Origin: a virus
Strand: one strand, 5' to 3'
Virus record (IMG/VR): IMGVR_UViG_3300006028_000338
Span: 1-36,760 of that record
Length of the DNA: 36,760 bases
Numbering within the stretch: position 1 is the first letter of the stretch; every line of letters begins with the position of its first letter. The position numbers and the translations under genes were made by a program. The notes beneath the pieces were generated by a model, which had not been told where the DNA came from, searched no databases, and worked only from the letters and a program-made list of their open reading frames with translations. This document shows, one piece after another, positions 2,921 through 36,760 of the stretch.

Positions 2921-3156
2921 AATTCTTCGAGTTTAGGGTAACGAATATGCAGACCGGGGAATCCGCAGGGTTCCTCGGTCAAGGCACAACGATGCAAGAA
3001 GCGTGGAGCGACGGCACGGCGAACGTGGTGGCCAGCTTTAGGCCAAAGCAGGACGGCAAGGCACGTAGGCAGCATGGTTTAGCCGTAGTCACTAAAACCG
3101 GTGGAGTAGTTATAAAATCGCTACAAGAATTTGAAAATGATACGAACAATTTCTAA
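2911..3156 (+). CDS. Small hypothetical early protein
   Basis: An 81-residue protein without a recognised family. The sequence is a plausible small alpha/beta domain: a first strand FFEFRVTNMQTGE, a 'FLGQGTTMQEAWSDG' turn-helix segment and a basic region at 45-60. The GTG start overlaps the nuclease stop by ten bases. An alternative ATG at 2947 has a better AGGG upstream but would remove the first strand, which looks coding. It may be an accessory to the recombination pair. The last codon region contains CTAACGC (3153-3159), the same core word as the proposed origin. Confidence 0.5.
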   Translation: MGLKFFEFRVTNMQTGESAGFLGQGTTMQEAWSDGTANVVASFRPKQDGKARRQHGLAVVTKTGGVVIKSLQEFENDTNNF

Positions 3157-3245
3157 CGCGCAGAAAAACCCTGCCGCGCAAATCGCTCAAAGGATGGTCG
3201 TGGTCGCATTGGCGAATCGGTCAAGTATCACCGGAAGGGGGCGTT

Positions 3246-4055
3246 ATGGCCGGTAACTGGATCAAGTTTGAGAAGTGCACATTTGATAAGCCGGAGGTAT
3301 TCGCAATTGCCGAGCGCCTAAACATCGAGCCGGTGGCAGTTGTCGGAAGACTTTTGCGAATCTGGAGCTGGTTTGATGAGCACACGACTGACGGTAACGC
3401 TGTTGGCGTTACCATATCACTACTGGACTGGCAGGCTGGAGTTGCTGGATTCGCGGAAGCGATGATGGCTGTGGGTTGGCTCATTAAAGAAGATGGAAAC
3501 ATCTCCCTTTCTCATTTTGACCGTCACAATGGGGAAACCGCTAAAAAGCGGGCACTTACAGCAAAAAGAGCCGCCGCATTTAAATCAAAAAGTAAGGCTA
3601 GTGCTAACGCTCCTACTAACGCAACCAGCGTTAATAGTGCGTTACCTAGAGAAGATAAGAGAAGAGAAGAATATATACAGAAAGAAGAAGGAGAAGAAGA
3701 ACGCGGGCGGGCGCGCGAGGAGGAACTTCTCAAAGTCGAGGTCGTGCACTCCGAGCCCATCTGGCAAAAAGATCACGGCTGGCAGGGGATCAGCGCCGAG
3801 GAAAAACAGCGTTGGAAGCTCGCCTATCCCGCCTGCGACATCGAGCGCCAGCTGCTGCAGATGGATATTTGGCTAAGGGCCAACCCGGCCGAGAGCCACA
3901 AGACGCAGTGGATGAAATTCATCACCGGCTGGCTCAAGCGTGAGCAGGATAAGGGCGGCGATGTTCGCGCAGACCGTCGCACCAATCCGATGACCGCAAG
4001 GAAGGGCGGCAATCCGTTTCAAATGAAAAAGTCCGACCATTCCCAGGGGTTTTAA
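3246..4055 (+). CDS. Phage replisome organizer (replication initiator)
   Basis: A 269-residue protein with the layout of phage O/DnaT-type replication proteins. Residues 1-95 form a winged-helix-like domain (WIKFEKCTFDKPEVFAIAE, then 'VVGRLLRIWSWFDEHTTDG'), a pattern I know from phage replisome organizers. Residues about 96-152 are a polar, low-complexity linker. Residues 170-235 carry the family C-terminus (WKLAYPACDIERQLLQM, 'WLRANP', 'KFITGWLKREQ'). It should bind the origin and hand over to the helicase loader encoded next. The ATG has GGAAGGGGG just upstream. The DNA encoding the linker holds repeated TAACGC words and a purine/AT-rich tract (see the origin entry), as lambda gene O holds lambda's origin. 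Confidence 0.7.
   Translation: MAGNWIKFEKCTFDKPEVFAIAERLNIEPVAVVGRLLRIWSWFDEHTTDGNAVGVTISLLDWQAGVAGFAEAMMAVGWLIKEDGNISLSHFDRHNGETAKKRALTAKRAAAFKSKSKASANAPTNATSVNSALPREDKRREEYIQKEEGEEERGRAREEELLKVEVVHSEPIWQKDHGWQGISAEEKQRWKLAYPACDIERQLLQMDIWLRANPAESHKTQWMKFITGWLKREQDKGGDVRADRRTNPMTARKGGNPFQMKKSDHSQGF
3393..3701 (+). other. Candidate replication origin inside the initiator gene
   Basis: An 8-bp inverted pair GGTAACGC (3393-3400) / GCGTTACC (3406-3413) with a 5-base gap is followed 190 bases later by four copies of the TAACGC core in 44 bp. These are CTAACGC at 3604-3610 and 3616-3622 (12-bp step), then GCGTTA at 3628-3633 and GCGTTACC at 3639-3646 on the other strand. Directly after comes 3648-3701, with only five pyrimidines in 54 bases and an ATATATA core at 3671-3677, a plausible unwinding element. 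A given hexamer is expected on either strand about once per 2 kb in random sequence, so six in 260 bases is striking. Origin function is inferred from the resemblance to lambda ori. Confidence 0.55.
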
Positions 4056-4058
4056 TCG

Positions 4059-4967
4059 ATGAACTCACCCACCGATTTTATGATCGAGACGGCAGCTCCC
4101 GAAGACCTGGAGCGTTCGCCCTTCGAGGCCGACTACGAAACGCATGCCGATGACCGCAGCGGGCGCGTAACAGCGGAGCCAATACGCATCGCCGCCGAGG
4201 CCGTCAGTTATTTCATGGTCGGCGTCGACGATCCGCAGCAGCACGCCCATCCCTATGAGGGCAAATGCAAGGTTTGCGACCAGCTGCTTGAGGGACAGCT
4301 GTGGCGTACAATCGATCATCCGCGCTCGCCCGGCTACTATCCGGTGAACTGTTGCGATGCGTGCTACCAAAACGCTCAGATTGATCACGAGCGTCTCAAA
4401 CGTAACCGCGAAGCCTGGGAGAAACTCTGCCCGACCGAATTCCGCTCCGATTGGGACAACGCGAAAGGCAGCCAGGCTCTATATAAACGCGTTACGGACT
4501 GGGCCGCAGAGTGGAATCTCGCCGAGCAGAAAGCGCCGAAAAAGGGGCTTCTCATCCATGGCGACAGCAGCACCGCGAAGACGCGCGTTTGTTGGCAGCT
4601 TTGCCGCAAACTCGCAGAGGAAGGCGTGCCATTCTTGTTCGTCGAAGCGATGGATCTTCTCGATGAAATGCCCAAGGAGGCGTTCCACGTCCCGTGCCTC
4701 GTGATTGATGATCTCGGCAATGACACGCTCGACTACAAGAAGGAGCAGCGACTCTTAAAACTCCTGCGCTCTCGTTCGCAATGGCATCGGCCCTACGTAG
4801 TGACGACACAATACGTCGGCGCTGATCTCGTCGCACGATTCTCTCAAGAGCCAGCCGGTGAAGCGGTCGTTCGTAGGCTACGCGAATTCTGCGAGCCAGT
4901 GCGTGCCCGTGCTCCAGGCGAAGGCGCAATCAAGCGAGACGCTAACGGCAAAGCTATACTCTCCTGA
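4059..4967 (+). CDS. DnaC-like AAA+ helicase loader
   Basis: A 302-residue ATPase of the DnaC/IstB type that would load the host replicative helicase at the phage origin. The N-terminal part contains a Cys cluster (C70-x2-C73, C98, C99-x2-C102), probably a zinc-binding module. The AAA+ core has Walker A G168-DSSTAKT and Walker B CLVIDDLG with D217-D218. Further on, 'VTTQYVGADLVARF' fits the sensor-1 region and 'AVVRRLREFCEPV' a sensor-2/arginine-containing end. Walker A lacks the usual second glycine (GDSSTAKT rather than GxxGxGKT) but keeps the Lys-Thr pair. The start lies 3 bases after the previous stop with AGGGG upstream. The pairing with the initiator gene is the classic O/P or DnaT/DnaC arrangement. 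Confidence 0.8.
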   Translation: MNSPTDFMIETAAPEDLERSPFEADYETHADDRSGRVTAEPIRIAAEAVSYFMVGVDDPQQHAHPYEGKCKVCDQLLEGQLWRTIDHPRSPGYYPVNCCDACYQNAQIDHERLKRNREAWEKLCPTEFRSDWDNAKGSQALYKRVTDWAAEWNLAEQKAPKKGLLIHGDSSTAKTRVCWQLCRKLAEEGVPFLFVEAMDLLDEMPKEAFHVPCLVIDDLGNDTLDYKKEQRLLKLLRSRSQWHRPYVVTTQYVGADLVARFSQEPAGEAVVRRLREFCEPVRARAPGEGAIKRDANGKAILS

Positions 4968-5213
4968 CCTCGGGCCAGCACCGGAGAGACCGATCTGAAA
5001 CGATCCGGAAAACCTACGGCTTCGTGAGTCTATATTCAGAAGGGCGTAGGCAAAAAATGCCGTCAAGAATTTTAGATAATATAGGCCGTAATTATTTTGT
5101 TGATACCGGTGGATAATGAGTCGCCCCAGGGCGGCCCCCTCCCCCCGCCCCCCAAAGGAATCTTTTTAGGGCCCCGTTTCTCTGCAGGGGCCAAACAACT
5201 GCCTTTCCCTTCT
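4968..5213. other. Intergenic gap with GC-rich block and hairpin
   Basis: The longest untranslated gap between the replication and packaging genes. The left half is ordinary. Positions 5060-5100 are AT-rich. Then comes GGGCGGC (5129-5135) and three C runs (5135-5139, 5141-5146, 5148-5153). A hairpin, GGCCCC (5170-5175) with GGGGCC (5187-5192), sits 21 bases before the methyltransferase ATG. The methyltransferase frame stays open back to a TTG at 5097, so the C runs might be translated. A packaging (cos) site, a promoter region or a translational switch are all possible; none is proven. Confidence 0.4.
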
Positions 5214-27568: not shown

Positions 27569-27680
27569 GGAGCTCACAGTATCGGTCGGTAGATGTGCGA
27601 CCATTTAGAATTTCGATATTTTAAGCAGTAGGCCCAAAATACCACCTTGCGACGGGAGACCTCGATAATGGGTCGCTTTA

Positions 27681-29483
27681 CTAGTCCTGTGATATCAACA
27701 TGGTGTAGATCGAAGCAGCGACCGAAGCATGGGATCGCAGCAGGCGAGGGGAGTGGCCTTCGCCATATAAAGTCATCCAGAAGCCTCTCTTACCTTCTAA
27801 AGATTCAGGGCCAAAAATTGTTTTTATGTAGTTAACTGCTTCAATTGGTTTTAATGGGTCGTTTTCTCCTTGTAATAAGGTGACCTTGTACTGGTTATCC
27901 GGGATAGGTCTGAAATCCTTTACTATGTCAACTAGACCCCGGAGAACCAGGATTCCTTGCTTATCAGATAGATTGCCGGCAGTACGAATTACGAACGATG
28001 TACCAACGCTTTCCCCAAAAAGTAGAATTTTGTCCGCCCGTACTCCAATGACCGATTTGGCGTATTCGATCAATTCCATTGCATCCTTTATGTCGTCGTT
28101 TAATGCAGTATTGAAGATCGTTGGATCTTCAAGTTTTTGAGGTCGAAATCCAAAGGATATATAATCGAAACCTTTGCTGACGAGGTATTGAACGGCTCCA
28201 TTGAATTCGGATGAAGGATTATCGGTTCTGTTTGTGGGAAACCTAATGATTAAACCTCGGTTCTTCCCGCGATCTGCCCGCCAAATCAATGCATTTAGCA
28301 AGTTTCCCTCCCTTAGTGGGATTGATAGGCGTTGTGGCTCTACGCCTTTAATATTTTCTGTGCCGGGCGTCTTATAAACCACTTTGTAGTCGGTCTCATC
28401 GGTCAAATTTACCCTATATAATTGCCTCGGCTCAGTACTGCTTGTGTGACTAATTATAAGGGAATTGCGCGTTTTTTCCAAGCATCCGTACCAATTTGTA
28501 CCGTTGGGAAAGACAAAAGGATGAGGTTCTGTGTCTAAGCCCGCAATCATCTGGATGGCCATTCCTTCGCCAAATAAATCGAACAGGAACCGACCATCAG
28601 GTAACGGATTTTCAGTCCCAATTACGCGGCCAGAAGGCGGCGACGCGACGATACTTGAGCGGCCGTCGAGGTCAACAGACCTTACAGTGAAGTCGCCGCG
28701 TCCCGCCGTCCTACATGCTGTGATCACGTTTTTCCCATCGAGGGACCAAGTGACGTGATTAATACGCTGTCCACGAGAAACTCGTAGAGTCTTTAGGTTT
28801 TTACCCTGCGGGTCCAAAAGTATTAGCGCACCATCAGTGCCTTCTAATGAAAGACAAATTGTTTTGGCATCCGGCGACCAAGCAAAATCTAATATAGATT
28901 CAGCCTCAAAAATGGTTTTGGGAGCTTCTGAAGGCTTCTCCATGTCGAATAAGCAAAGCTGTTCTTTGGTTAAATCGGTAGTTGGAATGCGAAAGCCAAG
29001 ATAGCGGCCGTCGGGCGACCACCGCATTGTTTTATACCCCTGCGACATTATAGGCACGTTTGGGACAGCTATTTTAGAGTCCCGCGGCGTCCAGAAAGTT
29101 AACTGGAATTTATGGTCACCTTTATTGTCGTTAACAAACGACATCATTTTACTTTTTGGTCGCCACAATATCAGTAATGGATTGCCTTCGTCATAGCGCC
29201 CAATTTGTTCGCCGGACTCAAAATATTGCAGCAGGATTTCCGCATTGCCATTTGGAAGGTCACGTTTTGTCAATAGTTCAGTTCCGTCCGGTGAAAGTAA
29301 AAGGGGAGCTCTATCAGAAATCCAAGGAAGTAGTTCAGACGCTATGGAGAGAACCTGTGTTTCGGCAGATGCCGATTGATCTGGACTGGCTATAGCAGGT
29401 TGTGTATTTAGATAGGCTATCGCGCATCCGAACAATATATGGGGAAAAAGTCCGCAATATTGGAGTATTTGTGTGCGTATCAT
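27681..29483 (-). CDS. Secreted S9-type serine hydrolase (prolyl-oligopeptidase-like)
   Basis: A 600-residue exported protein. An N-terminal signal peptide (hydrophobic to about residue 30, AIA-S cleavage-like) is followed by a beta-propeller-like domain (about 40-370) with TolB/WD-type repeats ('MRWSPDGRYLGFRIP', 'FAWSPDAKTICLSLEG', 'VTWSLDGKNVITACR'). The C-terminal alpha/beta-hydrolase carries the triad S492 in GESVG, D542 in 'GENDPLK' and H577 in 'GEGHSPRLL'. This is the arrangement of prolyl oligopeptidases/acylaminoacyl peptidases, which cut short peptides in the periplasm. The exact substrate cannot be told. Transcribed towards the phage genes; AT-richer than them, so it is probably chromosomal or an acquired cargo gene. 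Confidence 0.8.
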   Translation of the reverse strand: MIRTQILQYCGLFPHILFGCAIAYLNTQPAIASPDQSASAETQVLSIASELLPWISDRAPLLLSPDGTELLTKRDLPNGNAEILLQYFESGEQIGRYDEGNPLLILWRPKSKMMSFVNDNKGDHKFQLTFWTPRDSKIAVPNVPIMSQGYKTMRWSPDGRYLGFRIPTTDLTKEQLCLFDMEKPSEAPKTIFEAESILDFAWSPDAKTICLSLEGTDGALILLDPQGKNLKTLRVSRGQRINHVTWSLDGKNVITACRTAGRGDFTVRSVDLDGRSSIVASPPSGRVIGTENPLPDGRFLFDLFGEGMAIQMIAGLDTEPHPFVFPNGTNWYGCLEKTRNSLIISHTSSTEPRQLYRVNLTDETDYKVVYKTPGTENIKGVEPQRLSIPLREGNLLNALIWRADRGKNRGLIIRFPTNRTDNPSSEFNGAVQYLVSKGFDYISFGFRPQKLEDPTIFNTALNDDIKDAMELIEYAKSVIGVRADKILLFGESVGTSFVIRTAGNLSDKQGILVLRGLVDIVKDFRPIPDNQYKVTLLQGENDPLKPIEAVNYIKTIFGPESLEGKRGFWMTLYGEGHSPRLLRSHASVAASIYTMLISQD

Positions 29484-29836
29484 AGAATTTAGGCCGTATC
29501 AGAGTAAGTTGCGAACGATTTTCCAATCCCGCCGGTTGATTTTAAGAGACCTTAGAAAAAGTTTCCTGTCAAAGCGCCCACTAACGGAAGTGTCGGGCAA
29601 ACGGCTGTCAATGACAACATAAAGATAAGCGGGGAAGGGAATTTTAAATTAATAAATAGAGCGAGTGCGCGTATATTAAGTGACAGCGCCCCGTCCCTTG
29701 TGGCAAATAAATGGCGTTAGTTCCCTGAAAAACATTTCGGTTGAAAACTAAAGAAATTACAAGAACAACAAGTTCACGTTTATGTCGTTTACTGGGGGTG
29801 GCAGAGTGCCCGTCTGTGATCGCAAAACTTACTACC
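29484..29836. other. Divergent intergenic region
   Basis: About 350 AT-rich bases between the leftward hydrolase gene and the rightward gene at 29837. Short open frames on both strands look like shadows. The plus-strand region 29741-29836 is open but reads as a polar, unconvincing extension. It must hold the promoters of both genes, but no good -35/-10 pair was found by eye. Confidence 0.4.
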
Positions 29837-30289
29837 ATGAATATCCGATTCGCAATTAGCCTCCTGGGAGCAGTTTCATTAGCCTTTTTGATTCCACGCC
29901 TTTTCGGCGAGTCTCCGAAGCAGGACGTAGGCATAGCGGAAAGGATAGGTAAATTATCGCCGACTGAAATAGATGCCTCAATTCTATTAGATAATGGAAC
30001 CATACTCGCAGTTTTTAAAAATGGTGATCAAGCAGTAATTCTAAAGTTTCCTCCTTTGAGTAAAAAAGCGGGAGCGGCCCAGGAAGTTAAATTAAGTTTG
30101 CAGCCTGGAATGCCCGACGAAGTAGATGTTCAGCCCAATTCGCCTATAGAGAAAAGCCTTTTAAAAATGACGAAAGACGTGCTGGGATCGACGGGCGAAA
30201 TATCTGCGCGTTCCAAGCTCGTAGCGCAAAATTGTTACTCTCTTCTATTCGATAGAAAGACGATCGCGCTTAATCTAAGGTGGCCATAA
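29837..30289 (+). CDS. Hypothetical exported protein
   Basis: A 150-residue protein beginning with a hydrophobic N-terminal segment (residues 5-22, 'FAISLLGAVSLAFLI'), a signal peptide or anchor, followed by a soluble part with no known domain ('DASILLDNGTILAVFKNGDQAVILKFPP'). It ends in 'CYSLLFDRKTIALNLRWP'. An in-frame ATG further back (29741) would place the hydrophobic stretch internally, so 29837 is preferred. It is followed after 46 bases by another exported protein on the same strand and could be co-transcribed. Function unknown. Confidence 0.5.
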   Translation: MNIRFAISLLGAVSLAFLIPRLFGESPKQDVGIAERIGKLSPTEIDASILLDNGTILAVFKNGDQAVILKFPPLSKKAGAAQEVKLSLQPGMPDEVDVQPNSPIEKSLLKMTKDVLGSTGEISARSKLVAQNCYSLLFDRKTIALNLRWP

Positions 30290-30335
30290 TCCGTTCGTGC
30301 CAGCCAAACCAGCATATCCACTACAAGTTGCTAGA

Positions 30336-31217
30336 ATGAAAAAATCTTATATTGTTATCCTTTGCTTCGCGATTATGGCCCTTATTATAGATAATATTCG
30401 GTTACGCAGTCTTGCCCGGGAAAAGGACGTTGTAAAAATTACGAGCCAAGCGGCTGAAAAGGCTAGCCCTTTACAACCGAATGATGTTGCGGCCGGGAAG
30501 GATTTGGTAACGAAGAAAGGTGAAGATCCGGCGGTACTTGCAAAAAAGAAGGAAGATGCGATAAAGGCCAGGCAGTTATTAGACGAGGCGTTTATGAAGG
30601 CTAGCAGTGTTCAAACTGCAATTGGCCCGGAGCTGCGCACTGCAAGATCTAGACGGGAGGTTGAAAAGGCTCTTTCCCCATATTTGTCGGAGCTCAACCT
30701 AGATCCAACAAAACTTCTTGCTGTAAAAAATATATTGGCGGAAAGAACTTCAACCGCAGCTGACACCCGGGAGCTAGCTCGTAAGCAGCGGCTAACACGG
30801 GACGAAACGGAGGCGTTAATTGAGGATGCGGAGAAAAAGTTGAATGACGATCTTGTGAATTTAGTTGGTCAAGCAGCCTTCGACAAGATAGCGGAAATTT
30901 CCAAAATGCAACCGGAGCTGCAGTTGATTCAAAATACGTATGCACTAGACATGTCATATTCTGGTGTTCCGCTCAATCCTTCTCAGGTAAAGTCATTAGC
31001 AGGCCTCATCACTAAATATTCGGGCACTGACCCAGAAACTCGTCGGCGACGCACGAGTATAGCAAATACCTCAACAAATACTTCCGAGATTGACCAAGAA
31101 GTACTGGCCAAAGCAGCGACTTTCTTGGATGAAAAACAATTGGCGGTATTACGTTCAGATCTGGCTGTCGCAACAAAAGGAGCAATTGCTGGTACGGTGG
31201 TTAACGCGCAGAAGTAG
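30336..31217 (+). CDS. Hypothetical membrane-anchored helical protein
   Basis: A 293-residue protein with one N-terminal membrane segment (residues 5-18, 'VILCFAIMALIIDNI') and a long, charged, mostly helical domain outside. The segment 'LDPTKLLAVKNILAERTS', followed by a long 'DEAEAL..EKKLNDDLVNLVG' helix and, near the end, 'EEVLAKAATFLDEKQLAVL'-like text, recalls a family of hypothetical proteins I associate with Verrucomicrobiota and other PVC bacteria. Its function is unknown. It may act with the exported protein just upstream. ATG 30336 is preferred over a TTG/GTG-type start at 30297, since the hydrophobic stretch then comes at the N-terminus. Confidence 0.55.
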   Translation: MKKSYIVILCFAIMALIIDNIRLRSLAREKDVVKITSQAAEKASPLQPNDVAAGKDLVTKKGEDPAVLAKKKEDAIKARQLLDEAFMKASSVQTAIGPELRTARSRREVEKALSPYLSELNLDPTKLLAVKNILAERTSTAADTRELARKQRLTRDETEALIEDAEKKLNDDLVNLVGQAAFDKIAEISKMQPELQLIQNTYALDMSYSGVPLNPSQVKSLAGLITKYSGTDPETRRRRTSIANTSTNTSEIDQEVLAKAATFLDEKQLAVLRSDLAVATKGAIAGTVVNAQK

Positions 31218-31343
31218 AACTTCTAAATGCCCGTAAATTAGACGGAGGCACCAGCGCGCTGTGAATGTGATCTTCGATCAGTAAGATAACCCGGTCTCGC
31301 GTTTGCCCCAATATCTAGGATTTCTTGGTGCAGGAAGAAGTTC

Positions 31344-32282
31344 TCAGTTACTCTCCTCCTTAGTAAGGATCCGATTACTACGTAGATTTAATGTCCATCG
31401 GATGCGTTTCTTAACTGCCTCGGTTTCATTGTTGGCAACGGCATGTATATTATAAGTGTCACGAGTGAAACTATATCGCCATTGGCCGTCGTTTATGACG
31501 ATGGGAGGAAGGGGCGTAATTGGTTTATAGTATTCTGACCATTTCATCTGGCCCCATATAAAATCCGATCGATTTGTTTGATCACCTATTCGCGAAATAA
31601 GTTTGTTCTCGTACTTGATATAGATCGCGTTAGCGGGGTTTTCGGATCTGCCCGCGCTTGCTAGCTGTTGATTTTCGTTATATGACAAACGATATAAGGT
31701 GCCTCGATTAACGATGCCAACGGGCTGATGACTGTTGTTTAGTGTCAATACTATAGTTGGTACTTCCCGGGATTGGCCGCTCCAGATTTTTATAGTGTTC
31801 GCGATGCGCTCAAAAGTAAGCTCATATTGGTCGGTTTTGGCGTAAATCACTTCGCAATTTATGAATGAATATAGGTCGCCAGCCGAACTCTCAATCTGCT
31901 TTGAGGCACCTTCTGGAGCTGCGTCTCGGACCATCCAAGACCGGCCAAACGCCAAAGTAGGCTTTGTTTTACTGATAATTATAAACTCGCCGCCCGGTGT
32001 TTCCCATAAAAAATTGTCATCGTTGAGCGGAGTTAGGTACGACAAGACTCCAATTAGCCGAAATGCACTATAATATGTGGAGCCATCGTACTCAATTTGG
32101 TGGCGCAGATAAGGGGCTTTGATTCCCTTTGTAACGGGCGGCCCTACCGATATGGACACAATAGGACTACCGTCCGCTGATATTAAAAATGGCCATTTAT
32201 TGTCGGTCGCTAGTACATCTTGGCAACTAAACCCCCAAGAGAGTAGTGCAATGAAATGCGTGTATATTCTCTTACTTATCAT
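31344..32282 (-). CDS. Hypothetical secreted protein, YD/RHS-like strand pattern
   Basis: A 312-residue exported protein with a signal peptide (residues 1-26, ending 'DVLA'). The rest is rich in beta strands. It includes 'LYRLSYNENQQLASAGR' and 'AIYIKYENKLISRIGDQTN', which resemble single YD/RHS-type strand units, but no full repeat array is present. There are no catalytic motifs. Its start overlaps the end of the Wzy-like gene by 11 bases, so the two are probably expressed together. A role at the cell surface is inferred only from the signal peptide and the partner gene. Confidence 0.5.
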   Translation of the reverse strand: MISKRIYTHFIALLSWGFSCQDVLATDNKWPFLISADGSPIVSISVGPPVTKGIKAPYLRHQIEYDGSTYYSAFRLIGVLSYLTPLNDDNFLWETPGGEFIIISKTKPTLAFGRSWMVRDAAPEGASKQIESSAGDLYSFINCEVIYAKTDQYELTFERIANTIKIWSGQSREVPTIVLTLNNSHQPVGIVNRGTLYRLSYNENQQLASAGRSENPANAIYIKYENKLISRIGDQTNRSDFIWGQMKWSEYYKPITPLPPIVINDGQWRYSFTRDTYNIHAVANNETEAVKKRIRWTLNLRSNRILTKEESN

Positions 32283-33690
32283 ATCCTATTAAGGCGTCTT
32301 TTAAAAATGAACACCAGGTGGACCGTACATCTTGACCGCAGCTAGGTAGAACCGTGACTCGTGTTTTTCGCGCTGAACAATATTTTAGCCACTGGTCATT
32401 GAATCCAAGTTGATCGAATGATGGAATACCTATAGCATTTATATTCGCAACCTCTGTGCTATTTGTTACCGGACCTGTAGGAGCAACGGCAATGATAAAC
32501 TTACCTTTAGTCCTCATAAGAACATCAACTATCTTTGGGCCAAATGCCACAACGATTTGTTCGTCCGAGGGCTTATACGCCTTATCGGCGGGGAATATTA
32601 TTACCGAGTACGAATCCAGTGATAAAAGTTCAAGCGTTTTGCGTATTTCCTTACCGTAGTCTAATCCCAAGCTCCGGTTATCGGGGACAAAGCAGATTGA
32701 TTGATTCGCACGTGCATTGCGATTAATTAGATAAATTTGCCCTTCTTGCCCTTTTTTGATTTTCCAGCGTTCACCGTGTCCAAACGCGAAGGAAAGCATG
32801 AAAATGCAGGTAGCTACAGCGGCGGAAATAACCAAGGTGCAAAGCGCAGTGGTTCTTAGAAAGGCGTAATCTTGTCTGCTAACCGATCGATGTAGAAACA
32901 ATAGTAAGAGAATTATGTCGAAAGTTAGCGGTAACCAGACAATAGAAGCGTACATCCATAATGTAGAAAAAAATGCAGCGGCAAGAAAGGCTATAAAACC
33001 TGACGAAAAACTTTGTATTACGTATGTATCAAACGCGCTGTCGTCCTCATTTGAACGCATACAGAAGACAAATGGGGCCACCAAGAAGGTCGTGACCACG
33101 AAGAACATAGGCAGTCCGGCTTCTACGGCTATATGAAGGAAACTGTTAACCATCCCTCCATAAAGTTCCTTGGATGAATATGGTTGAACCCAATGACGAA
33201 ATGCGTTCCCGGACTCGCCGAGCCCCCACCCAGTAAGGGGACTGCTATTTATAAGGCAAAGGCCGCCGGCCCACAATTGGAGGCGGTTGGCTACAGACTT
33301 GTCGGATCCGATTTCTATAAACCTGCTAAATACGCCGATCGCCAACGCCGAGATCAGCAGAAGGCTTAAGTGTGGAATGACAAAATCTGCAAATTGCCGA
33401 ATGGAGTTGCCGCGCGCTTTTGATCGGATTAGCCCATACCAAATGTATGCGATCGCGACTGCTGTAATAGCTCCTCTCGAAAATGTTAAAGAAATTGCGA
33501 GTAATAGTGCGACTTCTCCAGCCCATCCTACAACTCTAGGAATTATTGCCTTAAATCCTTCGAGCGGTATGAATAACGGAGTAATGCAGGCGAGAAATGC
33601 TGCTGCGTGGTTAGGATTTGCCCATCCAAACCCAAGGCGATGAGCTCCATTAACTACATAATCCGTTTTAAAGAATTCAAGGAAGGCCAT
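32272..33690 (-). CDS. Wzy/O-antigen-ligase-like membrane protein, N-terminally short
   Basis: A 472-residue protein. Residues 1-310 carry about seven to eight hydrophobic segments with the Wzy_C pattern: 'GFGWANPNHAAAFLACITPLFIP' (family: 'NPN..A..L'), 'LLLAISLTFSRGAI' (family: 'TxSRga'), and the periplasmic loop 'LTGWGLGESGNAFRHW'. Such proteins polymerise or ligate O-antigen or glycan chains. Family members usually have four or five more membrane helices before the NPN motif; here an in-frame stop lies three codons upstream of the ATG. The gene is therefore either truncated or a minimal variant. After the last helix, residues 315-472 are a soluble domain with alpha/beta pattern ('YSVIIFPADKAYKPSDEQIVVAFG', 'VTVLPSCGQDVRSTWCSFLKDAL') that I cannot name. 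Confidence 0.6.
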   Translation of the reverse strand: MAFLEFFKTDYVVNGAHRLGFGWANPNHAAAFLACITPLFIPLEGFKAIIPRVVGWAGEVALLLAISLTFSRGAITAVAIAYIWYGLIRSKARGNSIRQFADFVIPHLSLLLISALAIGVFSRFIEIGSDKSVANRLQLWAGGLCLINSSPLTGWGLGESGNAFRHWVQPYSSKELYGGMVNSFLHIAVEAGLPMFFVVTTFLVAPFVFCMRSNEDDSAFDTYVIQSFSSGFIAFLAAAFFSTLWMYASIVWLPLTFDIILLLLFLHRSVSRQDYAFLRTTALCTLVISAAVATCIFMLSFAFGHGERWKIKKGQEGQIYLINRNARANQSICFVPDNRSLGLDYGKEIRKTLELLSLDSYSVIIFPADKAYKPSDEQIVVAFGPKIVDVLMRTKGKFIIAVAPTGPVTNSTEVANINAIGIPSFDQLGFNDQWLKYCSARKTRVTVLPSCGQDVRSTWCSFLKDALIGYDK

Positions 33691-33702
33691 CTTGGCTTAC
33701 GA

Positions 33703-33756
33703 TGAAGCCGAGGACGAAAACGGCTGAGAGGCGCCGCTTTCTATGCCTCGGCTTCA
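33703..33756. repeat. 11-bp perfect inverted repeat upstream of the Wzy-like gene
   Basis: TGAAGCCGAGG (33703-33713) and CCTCGGCTTCA (33746-33756) are exact reverse complements, 32 bases apart, with a smaller GC-rich pairing possible between them. It lies between the stop of the secreted-protein gene and the start of the Wzy-like gene, both leftward. No T run follows on either strand. It may be a terminator-like or attenuating stem, a REP-type element, or the scar of a rearrangement. Confidence 0.5.
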
Positions 33757-33806
33757 ATTTGATCTCGAAATAGTGGCGTAGTAAACGTCGACTACTCCCT
33801 TGCTGC

Positions 33807-34358
33807 TTAATTTTCGATATACATTGGCGCCATTTGGTAGACAGGTTGGTAATTTATATCGCCCTCTCCAGCCGCAATGTCTTTACCTACAGTATCTGGA
33901 TATATGGTGCCAACTTCCTTGCTCCTAGGATCGTACTCAAGATTCATGCCACAATGAAATGTTGCGTCGACATTTGCTTCCGCGTACCAGGTTGTATCTA
34001 CCACGGGTCCAGCAGTTGTAGATAGTGTTCCCTGATATGTGGGCGTACTGTAAGGCGTCTCCCGATCATAATTTCCATGCATCACTGCATAATTGGAGTC
34101 GCCGGCATCAGGACTGCTTGTCAGGTCGTTTAATTCATCTAAATTATCAACAACCTTGAGCACAAAATAATCCCCCGTGGTTTGAGCAGCCGCGCTGTTC
34201 AGGTTATTGACAACACCCGCCATTGCTGCGCCCGTTGCTTGATCTAAGGCAGCGTTCCCGGATCGGACGTAGATTACGTCGACGGTTTCCTGGCTATAGG
34301 ACAGTTGAAAAAGCGCCAAAAAGGCGCAAATTACTAACGATATTTTGATATGTTTCAT
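33807..34358 (-). CDS. Hypothetical secreted protein
   Basis: A 183-residue exported protein with a clear signal peptide (basic MKHIK, hydrophobic 6-18, 'LSYSQ' cleavage region). The mature part is acidic and rich in Asp, Asn, Tyr and Thr ('VDVIYVRSGNAALDQATGAAMAGVV', 'DNLDELNDLTSSPDAGD', 'AVMHGNYDRETPYSTPTYQGTL'), fitting an extracellular or periplasmic soluble protein. A single Cys is present (FHCGMN). No family recognised. AT-rich like its neighbours. Confidence 0.55.
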   Translation of the reverse strand: MKHIKISLVICAFLALFQLSYSQETVDVIYVRSGNAALDQATGAAMAGVVNNLNSAAAQTTGDYFVLKVVDNLDELNDLTSSPDAGDSNYAVMHGNYDRETPYSTPTYQGTLSTTAGPVVDTTWYAEANVDATFHCGMNLEYDPRSKEVGTIYPDTVGKDIAAGEGDINYQPVYQMAPMYIEN

Positions 34359-34756
34359 TTGTCTCCCGATATTAGTTTGAATTGCCGATGGGGGAGAATC
34401 AGCAAGTTAAACATTATTCAAGCGTATTTATTTTTTCTTCTAGTTACGGCTATGAATTTGCCAATTTAGATCACTTGATACGAGGTAAGATTACAATGAG
34501 ACTATCCTTAAGTACAGGTGACGTTTCAGCTGCCCGGTTTGATAGATTCGTGGACAATATTGGCGGTGAAATTAAATAGGCGTAGATTTAAAATGGCTTT
34601 AATCAAGGGGTGACGCTGCAAGGGGCTGGCGATTGATGTCGAGGGTCTAAAAAGTGAGCTGAAAAGGCTTATACCTGAGACTGTATATGACGGCGGTTTC
34701 CTCTTGAACAGCTAGCTGCGATGGATGTCGATATGCATTTAGACAAGTTGCTGGAA
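34359..34756. other. Intergenic region with possible gene debris
   Basis: About 400 AT-rich bases. A weak plus-strand frame (TTG 34382 or ATG 34388 to 34579) ends in 'GDVSAARFDRFVDNIGGEIK', and a second piece follows at 34614-34715 (see pseudogene entry). A 15-codon frame from ATG 34721 ends inside the 3' end of the next, leftward gene. Nothing here is convincing as an intact gene. Confidence 0.35.
34614..34715 (+). pseudogene. Possible gene fragment
   Basis: A stop-to-stop stretch without a start codon reads KGLAIDVEGLKSELKRLIP followed by 'ETVYDGGFLLNS'. The amino-acid pattern is more protein-like than chance suggests, but it is only 33 codons. It could be a remnant of a small gene that also included the frame ending at 34579. 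Low confidence. Confidence 0.25.
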
Positions 34757-35230
34757 TCAATAAATTAATCTGAAATTAAGTTCTGGTCGCCGGAATGTAA
34801 TAGCTGCAATAGAATCGCTCGAAAACTGATTCTTGTGACCATATACTGTCTCGAGCTTCGGGAATTTATGTAGCGTGATAATATCTCTGTTGGAGATGCT
34901 TGTCCGTGCAATGTCTAAGGTTTTTAGTCCGATTTGGTCTGGTAAACTTACGAGTAATTCTCCAGAAACCCGTTTATTGCCTTTTAAATTTAGATGCTGA
35001 ATTTCCATGGCGTCTCCGAGGAATTTAAGATCGTCGTCGTCAAGGGCTTCTAGTTCAAGTTTGACGCTGCTGAATCGGCCCCCAATAAACAGTTTTACCC
35101 AATCTGCTGCCCCAGCTTTTAAAAATGCGGGTGCGTAGTCCGCATAAACTGTTATTAGGTTATCTGCATTTAGCTGAGCATGTACCCGCCCAGTACGGTT
35201 TAATAGATCCGCTCGCTCCTTTGGAGTCAT
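34757..35230 (-). CDS. Leucine-rich-repeat-like protein
   Basis: A 157-residue protein. Residues 50-150 show irregular leucine-rich-repeat units ('DLKFLGDAMEIQHLNLKGN', 'IGLKTLDIARTSISNRDII', 'FPKLETVYGHKNQFSSDSI') ending in an 'ELNFRLIY' cap. The first 45 residues are a charged helix and turn region without a signal peptide. Small LRR proteins of this kind are frequent in Planctomycetota and Verrucomicrobiota, usually with unknown partners. It is short for an LRR domain (about four units), so it may be partial. ATG start; no ribosome site seen. Confidence 0.5.
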   Translation of the reverse strand: MTPKERADLLNRTGRVHAQLNADNLITVYADYAPAFLKAGAADWVKLFIGGRFSSVKLELEALDDDDLKFLGDAMEIQHLNLKGNKRVSGELLVSLPDQIGLKTLDIARTSISNRDIITLHKFPKLETVYGHKNQFSSDSIAAITFRRPELNFRLIY

Positions 35231-35436
35231 TGATGGTTTTGTTGAGAATTTTATGCGGTTGTGCTTTGATGTGGGCTGTTGTAGCTGCTAATTTTTAATC
35301 ATTTGGCCGCAAGGCAACTTGCACCAGTGGTTGTACAAAATACGTGATGTTTTCGGCCCTTTTGGGCGGCAAAGCTGTGAGGTCGTCGATTCGAGTGTAG
35401 GGCATCTAAGCGCGACGCGCTTTTCCTGCTTCGGAA
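35231..35436. other. Short intergenic region
   Basis: About 200 bases between two leftward genes. A 6-bp stem AAGCGC (35408-35413) / GCGCTT (35417-35422) with a 3-base loop lies just past the stop of the gene at 35437 and might help to end it, though on that strand no T run follows. No tRNA could be folded here. Confidence 0.3.
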
Positions 35437-35664
35437 TCACTGTCTAAATTTCTCGGGTTGAACCCACACCCACAATAACACGGCTGAAATAATACTGAAC
35501 GGCGGTATCAAAACTGATCGAGTGAGACTCGCCCGGCGCTTTGCCTCTAACGTTTCGCGCTTTGTCATGATATTAATCAAATGATGTTGAGCTGCTTCAC
35601 GAGGCTTTTTGAAAGGGGTAGCCACCCCTGAAACATATTGTCGTACTATCCTTAGACGGATCAA
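35437..35664 (-). CDS. Small membrane protein candidate
   Basis: Up to 75 residues from a TTG at 35664, which overlaps the previous leftward stop by four bases, or 43 residues from ATG 35568. In either case one hydrophobic segment near the C-terminus ('SVLIPPFSIISAVLLWVWV') would cross the membrane, preceded by a basic, charged stretch (TKRETLEAKRRASLTR), which suggests an N-in topology. The overlap with the upstream gene supports the longer form and translational coupling. No function can be assigned. Confidence 0.45.
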   Translation of the reverse strand: MIRLRIVRQYVSGVATPFKKPREAAQHHLINIMTKRETLEAKRRASLTRSVLIPPFSIISAVLLWVWVQPEKFRQ

Positions 35665-36188
35665 AGCCCCACCACGTACACGCTGTATTTTTTACCTTTT
35701 AGCTCGATCAGCGCACGAAGATCGCTGCGTTGTTCTGGGCGAGTATAGAGCATCCAGGCACGGCGGCATTTCGTTGCTTCCGCTTCTGTGTTTACGGTTA
35801 CGACCTCGCCCCTGTTAAGCTGTTCAGCATACCACTTATATCGCCCATGCTCTCGAAAATCGCTGTCGAGCAGGCTTCCGGGTTTCGGCTTGGACGGGTC
35901 TTGGGGGATTAGTAGCCAGAGATCGGGCTTCACTTGCCTGATGTAAAGTTGAAGGTCCAACTTGTGGTGCTGCTTGTAGCGGGTAAACAGCTTAAAAAAG
36001 GTCGGGTATTCCTTTTTGTTATGAATCCCGACCATCGTGCCGTCACCCAGGGCCTCCACGTAGTATTGCTTGTTGGGACGCAACGGCGAATTTTTTGGCG
36101 TTTCTGGGAACTCGATATACTCGCCCAGCGCAACTTCAGCGCGTAAAGGCTCGAGGGTTAAGGTGGAGGCGGTGGACTTGATTGGCAT
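35661..36188 (-). CDS. Hypothetical soluble protein
   Basis: A 175-residue soluble protein with higher GC than the block to its left. It has an 'ELGEYIEFPETPKNSPL' region, aromatic/basic central helices ('FFKLFTRYKQHHKLDLQLYIRQ') and a C-terminal part 'VVTVNTEAEATKCRRAWMLYTRPEQRSDLRALIELKG'. No known domain is recognised. Its composition is closer to that of the phage part, so it may belong to phage or mobile backbone rather than to the envelope block. It begins divergently to the last gene of the window. Confidence 0.5.
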   Translation of the reverse strand: MPIKSTASTLTLEPLRAEVALGEYIEFPETPKNSPLRPNKQYYVEALGDGTMVGIHNKKEYPTFFKLFTRYKQHHKLDLQLYIRQVKPDLWLLIPQDPSKPKPGSLLDSDFREHGRYKWYAEQLNRGEVVTVNTEAEATKCRRAWMLYTRPEQRSDLRALIELKGKKYSVYVVGL

Positions 36189-36349
36189 CGAGCGACGAAA
36201 GAGGCGTAAAGATTCATTGTCAATGGATCTTCGATTTCACTTTAGCCCCACCAATTTCATTGCCAAGTCGCTCATCGTTAGAGGACGTCAGGCGTGAGGT
36301 AAATTTTCGGCTCGCCGAGGTCGTGGACGGCAGTGTCCAAAAGAACACT

Positions 36350-36760
36350 ATGTCGCCCGAGAGCTACCCCGTTTACTTCCGTTTGCTGTGTGGACTACCC
36401 ATTCACCTAACATTCCCCTCAGTCTCTTGGATGCTAGCGATTTATCAAATCAGTGGTGGTGGTAGCCCATTTATCCTCGAAGGTTGTCCAGCTACGGGCG
36501 GATGGTGGGCACTTAGTGAACGTTTCACTTGGCGAGACGACTTAGAAGACGCCCTTTTCAAATATGGAATCGAGTTCAGACACGACCGAATCAGTGGGAC
36601 AGTCGTTCGTGGCCTCGTCTGGCGTGGCTGGGCGGAGATCGTCCCGCCGCCGCACCCCAAAACGCTTTGGCGACCAAAAGCGCAGCGTGAGTACCTGGGA
36701 TGTACCGCGTTCGAGTATCTCAATCGTGAGCGCAGCCAAACCGAATCCGGCCGTCCATGA
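36350..36760 (+). CDS. Hypothetical protein at the right edge
   Basis: A 136-residue protein from ATG 36350; the frame is open back to a TTG at 36182 (192 residues), which would overlap the divergent gene's start. It contains a hydrophobic, Gly-rich middle ('FPSVSWMLAIYQISGGGSPF', 'CPATGGWWALSERF') and a basic C-terminus ('KTLWRPKAQREYLGC'). No family recognised. Its stop is the last codon of the window. Composition (about 57% GC in one sampled line) resembles the phage region. Confidence 0.4.
   Translation: MSPESYPVYFRLLCGLPIHLTFPSVSWMLAIYQISGGGSPFILEGCPATGGWWALSERFTWRDDLEDALFKYGIEFRHDRISGTVVRGLVWRGWAEIVPPPHPKTLWRPKAQREYLGCTAFEYLNRERSQTESGRP

Follow-up and report, generated by a model that had tools for sequence, protein, structure and literature searches.

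An initiator gene and its neighbors

Where does replication of this phage begin? The question is raised by a group of short inverted repeats inside the gene for its putative replication initiator, which the initial annotation read as a lambda-ori-like origin. The window, meaning the whole stretch of DNA that was analyzed, is a virus record of 36,760 bases. Its initiator gene (3246..4055, + strand) encodes a 269-aa protein made up of a YdaU-type N-domain, a linker and a C-domain. Profile searches matched this protein over most of its length (residues 1-234 of 269) to phrog_2509, a replication initiation protein profile (E 4e-60), and also to phrog_9474 (E 3e-34), placing it among the YdaU-type phage replication initiators. 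A Pfam search up to E 1 returned no O-type replication family, and Pfam together with NCBIfam gave the initiator no name. Its homologues include YdaU of the Rac prophage in E. coli 442/2 and proteins of Xanthomonas phage CP2, Pseudomonas phages VW-6S and PAN70, and Escherichia phage TL-2011b; Salmonella phage epsilon15 encodes a more distant one. Some plasmid records that carry this initiator resemble phage genomes, and they offer a hint, not a proof, of autonomous replication.

An AlphaFold2 model of residues 1-122 (mean pLDDT 84.5) predicted a winged-helix body, which together with the alignments was assigned to residues 1-96 (3246..3533, +), and a long basic helix before the linker at residues 97-120 (3534..3605, +). 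The helix was modeled with moderate confidence (pLDDT about 59-75), below that of the rest of the model. Searching the PDB with the N-domain profile by sequence gave no match, and searching by fold gave mostly generic winged-helix domains, none at E <= 0.001. The C-terminal part (3720..4052, +), which presumably interacts with a helicase loader or helicase, varies among relatives and, when searched alone, had no Pfam, PHROG or convincing PDB match. The next gene (4059..4967, +) encodes a DnaC-like helicase loader of the AAA+ class (phrog_50, E 7e-12).

At about 27.6 kb, the G+C content of the window falls from about 55% to about 45%. Positions 27600-36760 are the probable host flank of a prophage; they include cellular-looking genes, one O-antigen ligase-like (32275-33690) and one leucine-rich-repeat-like (34760-35230), and no tRNA was found there.

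Inverted half-sites within the initiator gene

Six copies of TAACGC or its complement GCGTTA lie in the initiator gene, at 3395(+), 3406(-), 3605(+), 3617(+), 3628(-) and 3639(-). As the initial annotation had said, they fall within about 250 bp; the span is exactly 250 bp. The copies at 3395 and 3406 belong to an upstream array (3393..3413, gene nt 148-168) of the form GGTAACGC-N5-GCGTTACC, previously described as a perfect inverted pair and found here to be one, with the sequence GGTAACGC-TGTTG-GCGTTACC. Its TAACG-N7-CGTTA is kept in relatives. The other four copies form an array at the domain linker (3605-3644), whose layout is likewise conserved. Half-site 1 (3605..3610, +) is followed by half-sites 2 (3617..3622, +) and 3 (3628..3633, -), the left and right arms of a palindrome at 3617-3633, and by half-site 4 (3639..3644, -), which abuts the purine tract described below through the junction GCGTTACCTAGAGAAGAG. 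The expected cluster of two direct and two inverted copies was thus recovered, in 40 bp and in the order ++--. The reading frames of the six half-sites are 2, 1, 2, 2, 1 and 0.

Further copies of the hexamer lie outside the gene. Those listed earlier at 652 and 1390 were placed correctly, those given as 526 and 3153 start one base later, at 527 and 3154, and one at 3241(-) had been missed. The copy at 3154 is upstream of the initiator start codon, and that at 3241 overlaps it.

Enrichment of TAACGC did not extend to the window as a whole, which contains 25 copies against 20.4 expected; only their clustering is unusual. The 17-bp palindrome TAACGC-N5-GCGTTA occurs twice (3395-3411 and 3617-3633) against an expectation of 0.01. 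In a control that allowed any hexamer at any place, four copies within 45 bp arose in 44 of 2000 dinucleotide shuffles of the window, six copies within 250 bp in 36, and both densities together in 4. The significance to be drawn from the window alone is modest, and it is the comparison with relatives that makes the clustering decisive. Cumulative GC skew rises steadily over the window with no turn at 3.4-3.7 kb, and thus neither supports nor refutes an origin there.

Conservation of the layout across relatives

In the linker DNA of relatives, inverted half-sites are followed by a run such as CTAGAGAAGAGAAGAGAAGAT. We typed 182 unique relatives by half-site: 84 carry TAACG (type A), 81 GTCCG (type B), 7 CGTCA, 6 GTCAC and 4 TTCGC, and four more could not be assigned to a type. 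Epsilon15 and about 80 relatives show the same layout with GTCCGC replacing TAACGC, and CGTCA, TTCGC and GTCAC occupy it as well. The half-sites form a lattice with 11-12-bp steps, one helical turn, between copies in the same orientation and, across the dyad, 12 bp (type A) or 14 bp (type B) between 5-mer starts. These spacings are locked, at ++12, +-12 and --11 in type A and at ++11, +-14 and --11 in type B. Among 42 nonredundant type A genes, for which at least three linker half-sites were required, TAACG-N7-CGTTA was present in the linker of 41, in the upstream region of 40, and in no case elsewhere in the gene.

Two of the three N-domain clades have two arrays per gene, at nt 145-210 and 330-420 in the window's clade (DKPE) and at nt 30-120 and 330-400 in the epsilon15 clade; the third (WDDPR) has the linker array only. 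The 3393-3413 pair, which had been treated as part of one cluster, is therefore a separate upstream array conserved within its clade. GTCAC-type genes of the DKPE clade carry GTCAC in both arrays, at the same two places, and the two array places of this clade switch half-site together. One 405-aa relative on a Pantoea dispersa plasmid (L098, pML.8a3, 1501-2718) has an expanded set of TAACG sites, some of which map close to codon 50, and its linker contains many repeats of the VT type.

A purine-rich tract adjoining the array

The array is followed by a purine-rich tract (3647..3700, +) of WAGAR-type units (TAGAG, AAGAT, AAGAG, AAGAG, AAGAA) around a TATATA core, presumably an unwinding or strand-capture element. 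The description of a stretch with few pyrimidines and an ATATATA core after the cluster was borne out: 47 of the 52 bases at 3648-3699 are purines, making this the most purine-rich 52 nt in the 36.8-kb window, and ATATATA lies at 3671-3677. The tract is strand-asymmetric and A+T-rich (67% A+T, vs 74% in lambda). In family genes, where tracts were detected by anchoring on the first WAGA motif, the units are 5-6-nt WAGAR and usually abut the half-site array, and for each of the five half-site types the tract is most self-similar at a shift of 5 nt instead of 3.

The 18-mer that spans the junction of array and tract (GCGTTACCTAGAGAAGAG) was found at 80 viral loci, taken from 109 matched stretches; 79 of these lie in genes of this initiator family and the remaining one in a truncated gene of the same family. 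Of the 80 viral loci at which a 24-mer from the tract alone was found, 58 belong to this family, one more is a frame-shifted member, and the remaining 21 code for other proteins. Five of these 21 were scanned against profiles, and three proved initiator-like (Phage_rep_org_N; primosomal protein). Several of the 21, initiator-like proteins at L403, L409, L441, L448 and L473, carry the same AGAGAAGAGAAGAGAAGAGAAGAT tract with their own, different palindromic or repeated sites just upstream. Since near-copies of one unclassified protein without obvious repeats make up about half of the 21, a tract common to unrelated initiators is better regarded as a lead than as a result.

In 42 of 181 family genes (for example L005), vs 2 of 1587 blocks elsewhere, a pair of C-runs (CCCC-N2-8-CCCC) lies no more than 70 nt downstream of the tract. 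The pair is also present in ydaU of the MG1655 Rac prophage (L090), which has an unrelated N-domain, and is possibly a further origin element. The window initiator gene does not have the pair seen in its relatives; C-clusters (CCCCAGGGCGGCCCCCTCCCCCCGCCCCCC) are found in the intergenic DNA after the loader gene, at 5118-5155.

Half-site type and residues 105 and 109

Across types, the residues most informative on half-site type are 105 (codon at 3558-3560) and 109 (3570-3572). Both lie in the predicted helix, and both codons are upstream of the linker half-sites. The residue pairs are T/V for TAACG, D or E/K for GTCCG, M/S for CGTCA, E/M for TTCGC and D/K for GTCAC. In a few type A proteins, position 105 is V or A and position 109 is A or Q; T105 and A109 are the residues of the window protein. 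Because GTCAC and GTCCG are not told apart by these positions, the two residues are not the whole code.

The WDDPR clade includes both type A and type B, and residues 105 and 109 split the two without exception. On a tree of residues 1-96 (35 rows), half-site type required 10 changes (8-10 across bootstrap trees) vs a mean of 11.8 after shuffling, and none of 200 bootstrap trees recovered types A and B as two clades. The strongly supported branches alone force one to two independent switches of type; few branches are strong, which leaves the number of switches uncertain. In this clade, half-site type thus appears nearly unlinked to residues 1-96. We consider it likely, from this covariation and the structural model, that helix 97-120 reads the half-site, and the simplest reading is that helix and array travel together. 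As the helix codons adjoin the array, sequence alone does not distinguish between linkage by exchange and functional matching. The origin signal seems to co-evolve with its reader.

Comparison with known in-gene origins

Phage origins inside genes are already known from lambda gene O and SPP1 gene 38. The lambda ori lies within gene O (PMC7466680, PMC5043065), with its annotated iterons at nt 349-433; the window array occupies gene nt 360-399 and the tract begins at about nt 401, in agreement with the earlier proposal that the cluster falls in the linker where lambda O carries its origin. As in lambda and its Stx-phage relatives, repeats predicted to bind the initiator are located within the initiator gene at a nearly identical position and followed by a strand-asymmetric A- or purine-rich tract. 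Replication gene P comes next in lambda, and the DnaC-like loader gene in the window. Unlike lambda, which has four direct 18-bp iterons, the window has inverted ++-- half-sites in 11-12-bp steps and a second array about 200 bp upstream; tandem direct 18-bp iterons of the lambda ori type were not found in it. The window initiator also differs in having no match to a Pfam O family. The proposed likeness to lambda thus holds for the way the origin would work and not for the classification of the protein.

In SPP1 oriL, too, repeats are combined with an AT-rich unwinding element within the gene of the origin-binding protein, and the system includes the helicase loader gp39 (PMC6316719). The window shares repeats and tract inside the initiator gene and a helicase loader; SPP1 differs in its direct repeats and in having another origin, oriR, at a distance of about 13 kb. 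Among relatives, the epsilon15 initiator belongs to the same family and has the same layout of two arrays and the same tract, differing in its GTCCGC half-site and in a C-terminal part that matches DnaT. Epsilon15 and some relatives, unlike the window, do not have an adjacent DnaC-like gene.

The Rac prophage was compared in two strains. YdaU of strain 442/2 is homologous to the window protein and comes with TAACGC arrays, the purine tract and the DnaC-like YdaV, whereas YdaU of MG1655 has an unrelated N-domain, other repeats (TGTTCAAACA) and a different tract. The two ydaU genes show no detectable DNA homology before nt 428, where the tract ends, and are then 92% identical through ydaV. N-domain, repeats and tract have been swapped as a unit between the two prophages. 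Rac has been reported to possess an active origin, oriJ (PMC3945230). Our literature search found no map position of oriJ within Rac in accessible papers, and nothing usable on YdaU/YdaV or on recognition-helix specificity in phage initiators.

Selection on the DNA and alternative explanations

Repeats within a coding sequence could be a by-product of a linker peptide (SANAPTNATSVNSALPREDKRREE) that is conserved for itself. The peptide REEKRRE is indeed the commonest over the tract (75 genes), and GNA..V[ST] recurs at the upstream site. Synonymous positions are fixed nevertheless: the codons GGT, AAC and GTT at the upstream site are each found in 83 of 83 genes (36/36 nonredundant) vs backgrounds of 19%, 75% and 20%, TTA encodes the Leu of ALP, where the linker array ends, in 81 of 81 genes (33/33 nonredundant) vs 9% elsewhere, and the tract Arg codons are AGA in 368 of 369 cases vs 8% elsewhere; as most rows are related, nominal P values overstate independence and are to be taken as effect sizes. 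One and the same half-site is encoded in several reading frames and on both strands, the tract has a period of 5 nt, and a change of half-site alters the peptide yet leaves the spacing in place. The locked codon choice and the occurrence of sites in several frames indicate that selection acts on the DNA, in keeping with the original argument that protein repetition alone does not account for the repeats, and we regard this explanation as very improbable. An equally remote alternative is a recombination hot spot, in which conserved linker DNA allows N- and C-terminal halves to be swapped. It would fit the start of Rac homology exactly at the tract end, the common C-terminal sequence and different N-domains of Xanthomonas phages SAC and CP2, and the near absence of linkage between type and residues 1-96 in one clade. 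It leaves unexplained the inverted half-sites, the lattice spacing and the match of half-site to residues 105 and 109, and exchange follows more simply from an origin sited between two domains.

The half-sites might instead be an operator through which the initiator represses or tunes its own transcription, with replication starting elsewhere. Palindromic half-site arrays suit an autorepressor too, and a site that the initiator binds for regulation only could be conserved in the same way. In some type A genes, additional half-sites lie in the 120 nt before the start, as they do in the window at 3154 and 3241, a mild excess that possibly reflects autoregulation; such copies are sparse, with 22 in 82 genes over 120 nt. 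The universally kept array lies 330-400 nt into the gene and is joined directly to a strand-biased tract, for which a repressor would have no need, and the layout matches lambda ori. Tract and junction favor an origin, and we consider an operator unlikely, if less so than the other two alternatives.

We therefore favor the reading, with a probability of roughly 0.9, that the phage replication origin consists of 3393-3413 and 3605-3700 and lies inside the phage's own initiator gene. This reading is based on the recurrence of the layout, the constraint at the DNA level, the switching of specificity, the covariation with residues 105 and 109, the exclusiveness of the junction, the Rac cassette exchange, the lambda position and the loader gene. 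We counted against it the flat GC skew here, the tract A+T below that of lambda, and the relatives without an adjacent DnaC-like gene. The initial proposal of a lambda-ori-like origin in the initiator gene is thereby supported by the 182 typed relatives, codon constraint, frame independence, half-site switching, the adjacent loader and the lambda position match.

Proposed mechanism and implications

By analogy with lambda and SPP1 (PMC7466680, PMC5043065, PMC6316719), assembly on half-sites would be followed by tract melting and helicase loading. Initiator molecules would bind half-sites via basic helix 97-120, with residues 105 and 109 contacting the variable bases, with pairing across each dyad and outward growth in steps of one helical turn. 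A bridge would probably connect the two arrays of the window's clade over the roughly 200 bp between them. The initiator complex would melt the adjacent purine tract, one strand of which would be held, and the C-terminal domain and the DnaC-like loader would load the host DnaB helicase. We give the details of bridging and melting about an even chance of being right. Transcription of the initiator gene would traverse the origin, as it does in lambda.

No description of the origins of this phage family was found in the open papers searched. What is new is the predicted family-wide origin, with its inverted lattice, second array, switchable specificity with candidate residues, and a tract that may be common to unrelated initiators. 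In-gene origins might more generally be modular, an idea that we hold with no leaning either way: a specificity-switching cassette of helix plus half-sites, with residues 105 and 109 part of a simple code, would be combined with a common tract of WAGAR pentamers that, occurring also in unrelated initiator families, would be a widespread and as yet unnamed origin-opening element. For a large family of temperate phages and prophages, among them a Rac prophage and epsilon15, our findings would locate the origin at single-base resolution. The natural series of five half-site specificities and the two candidate residues make recognition and its switching directly testable with existing phage genes, and the half-site array plus WAGAR tract may serve as a sequence signature for finding origins in unannotated phages.
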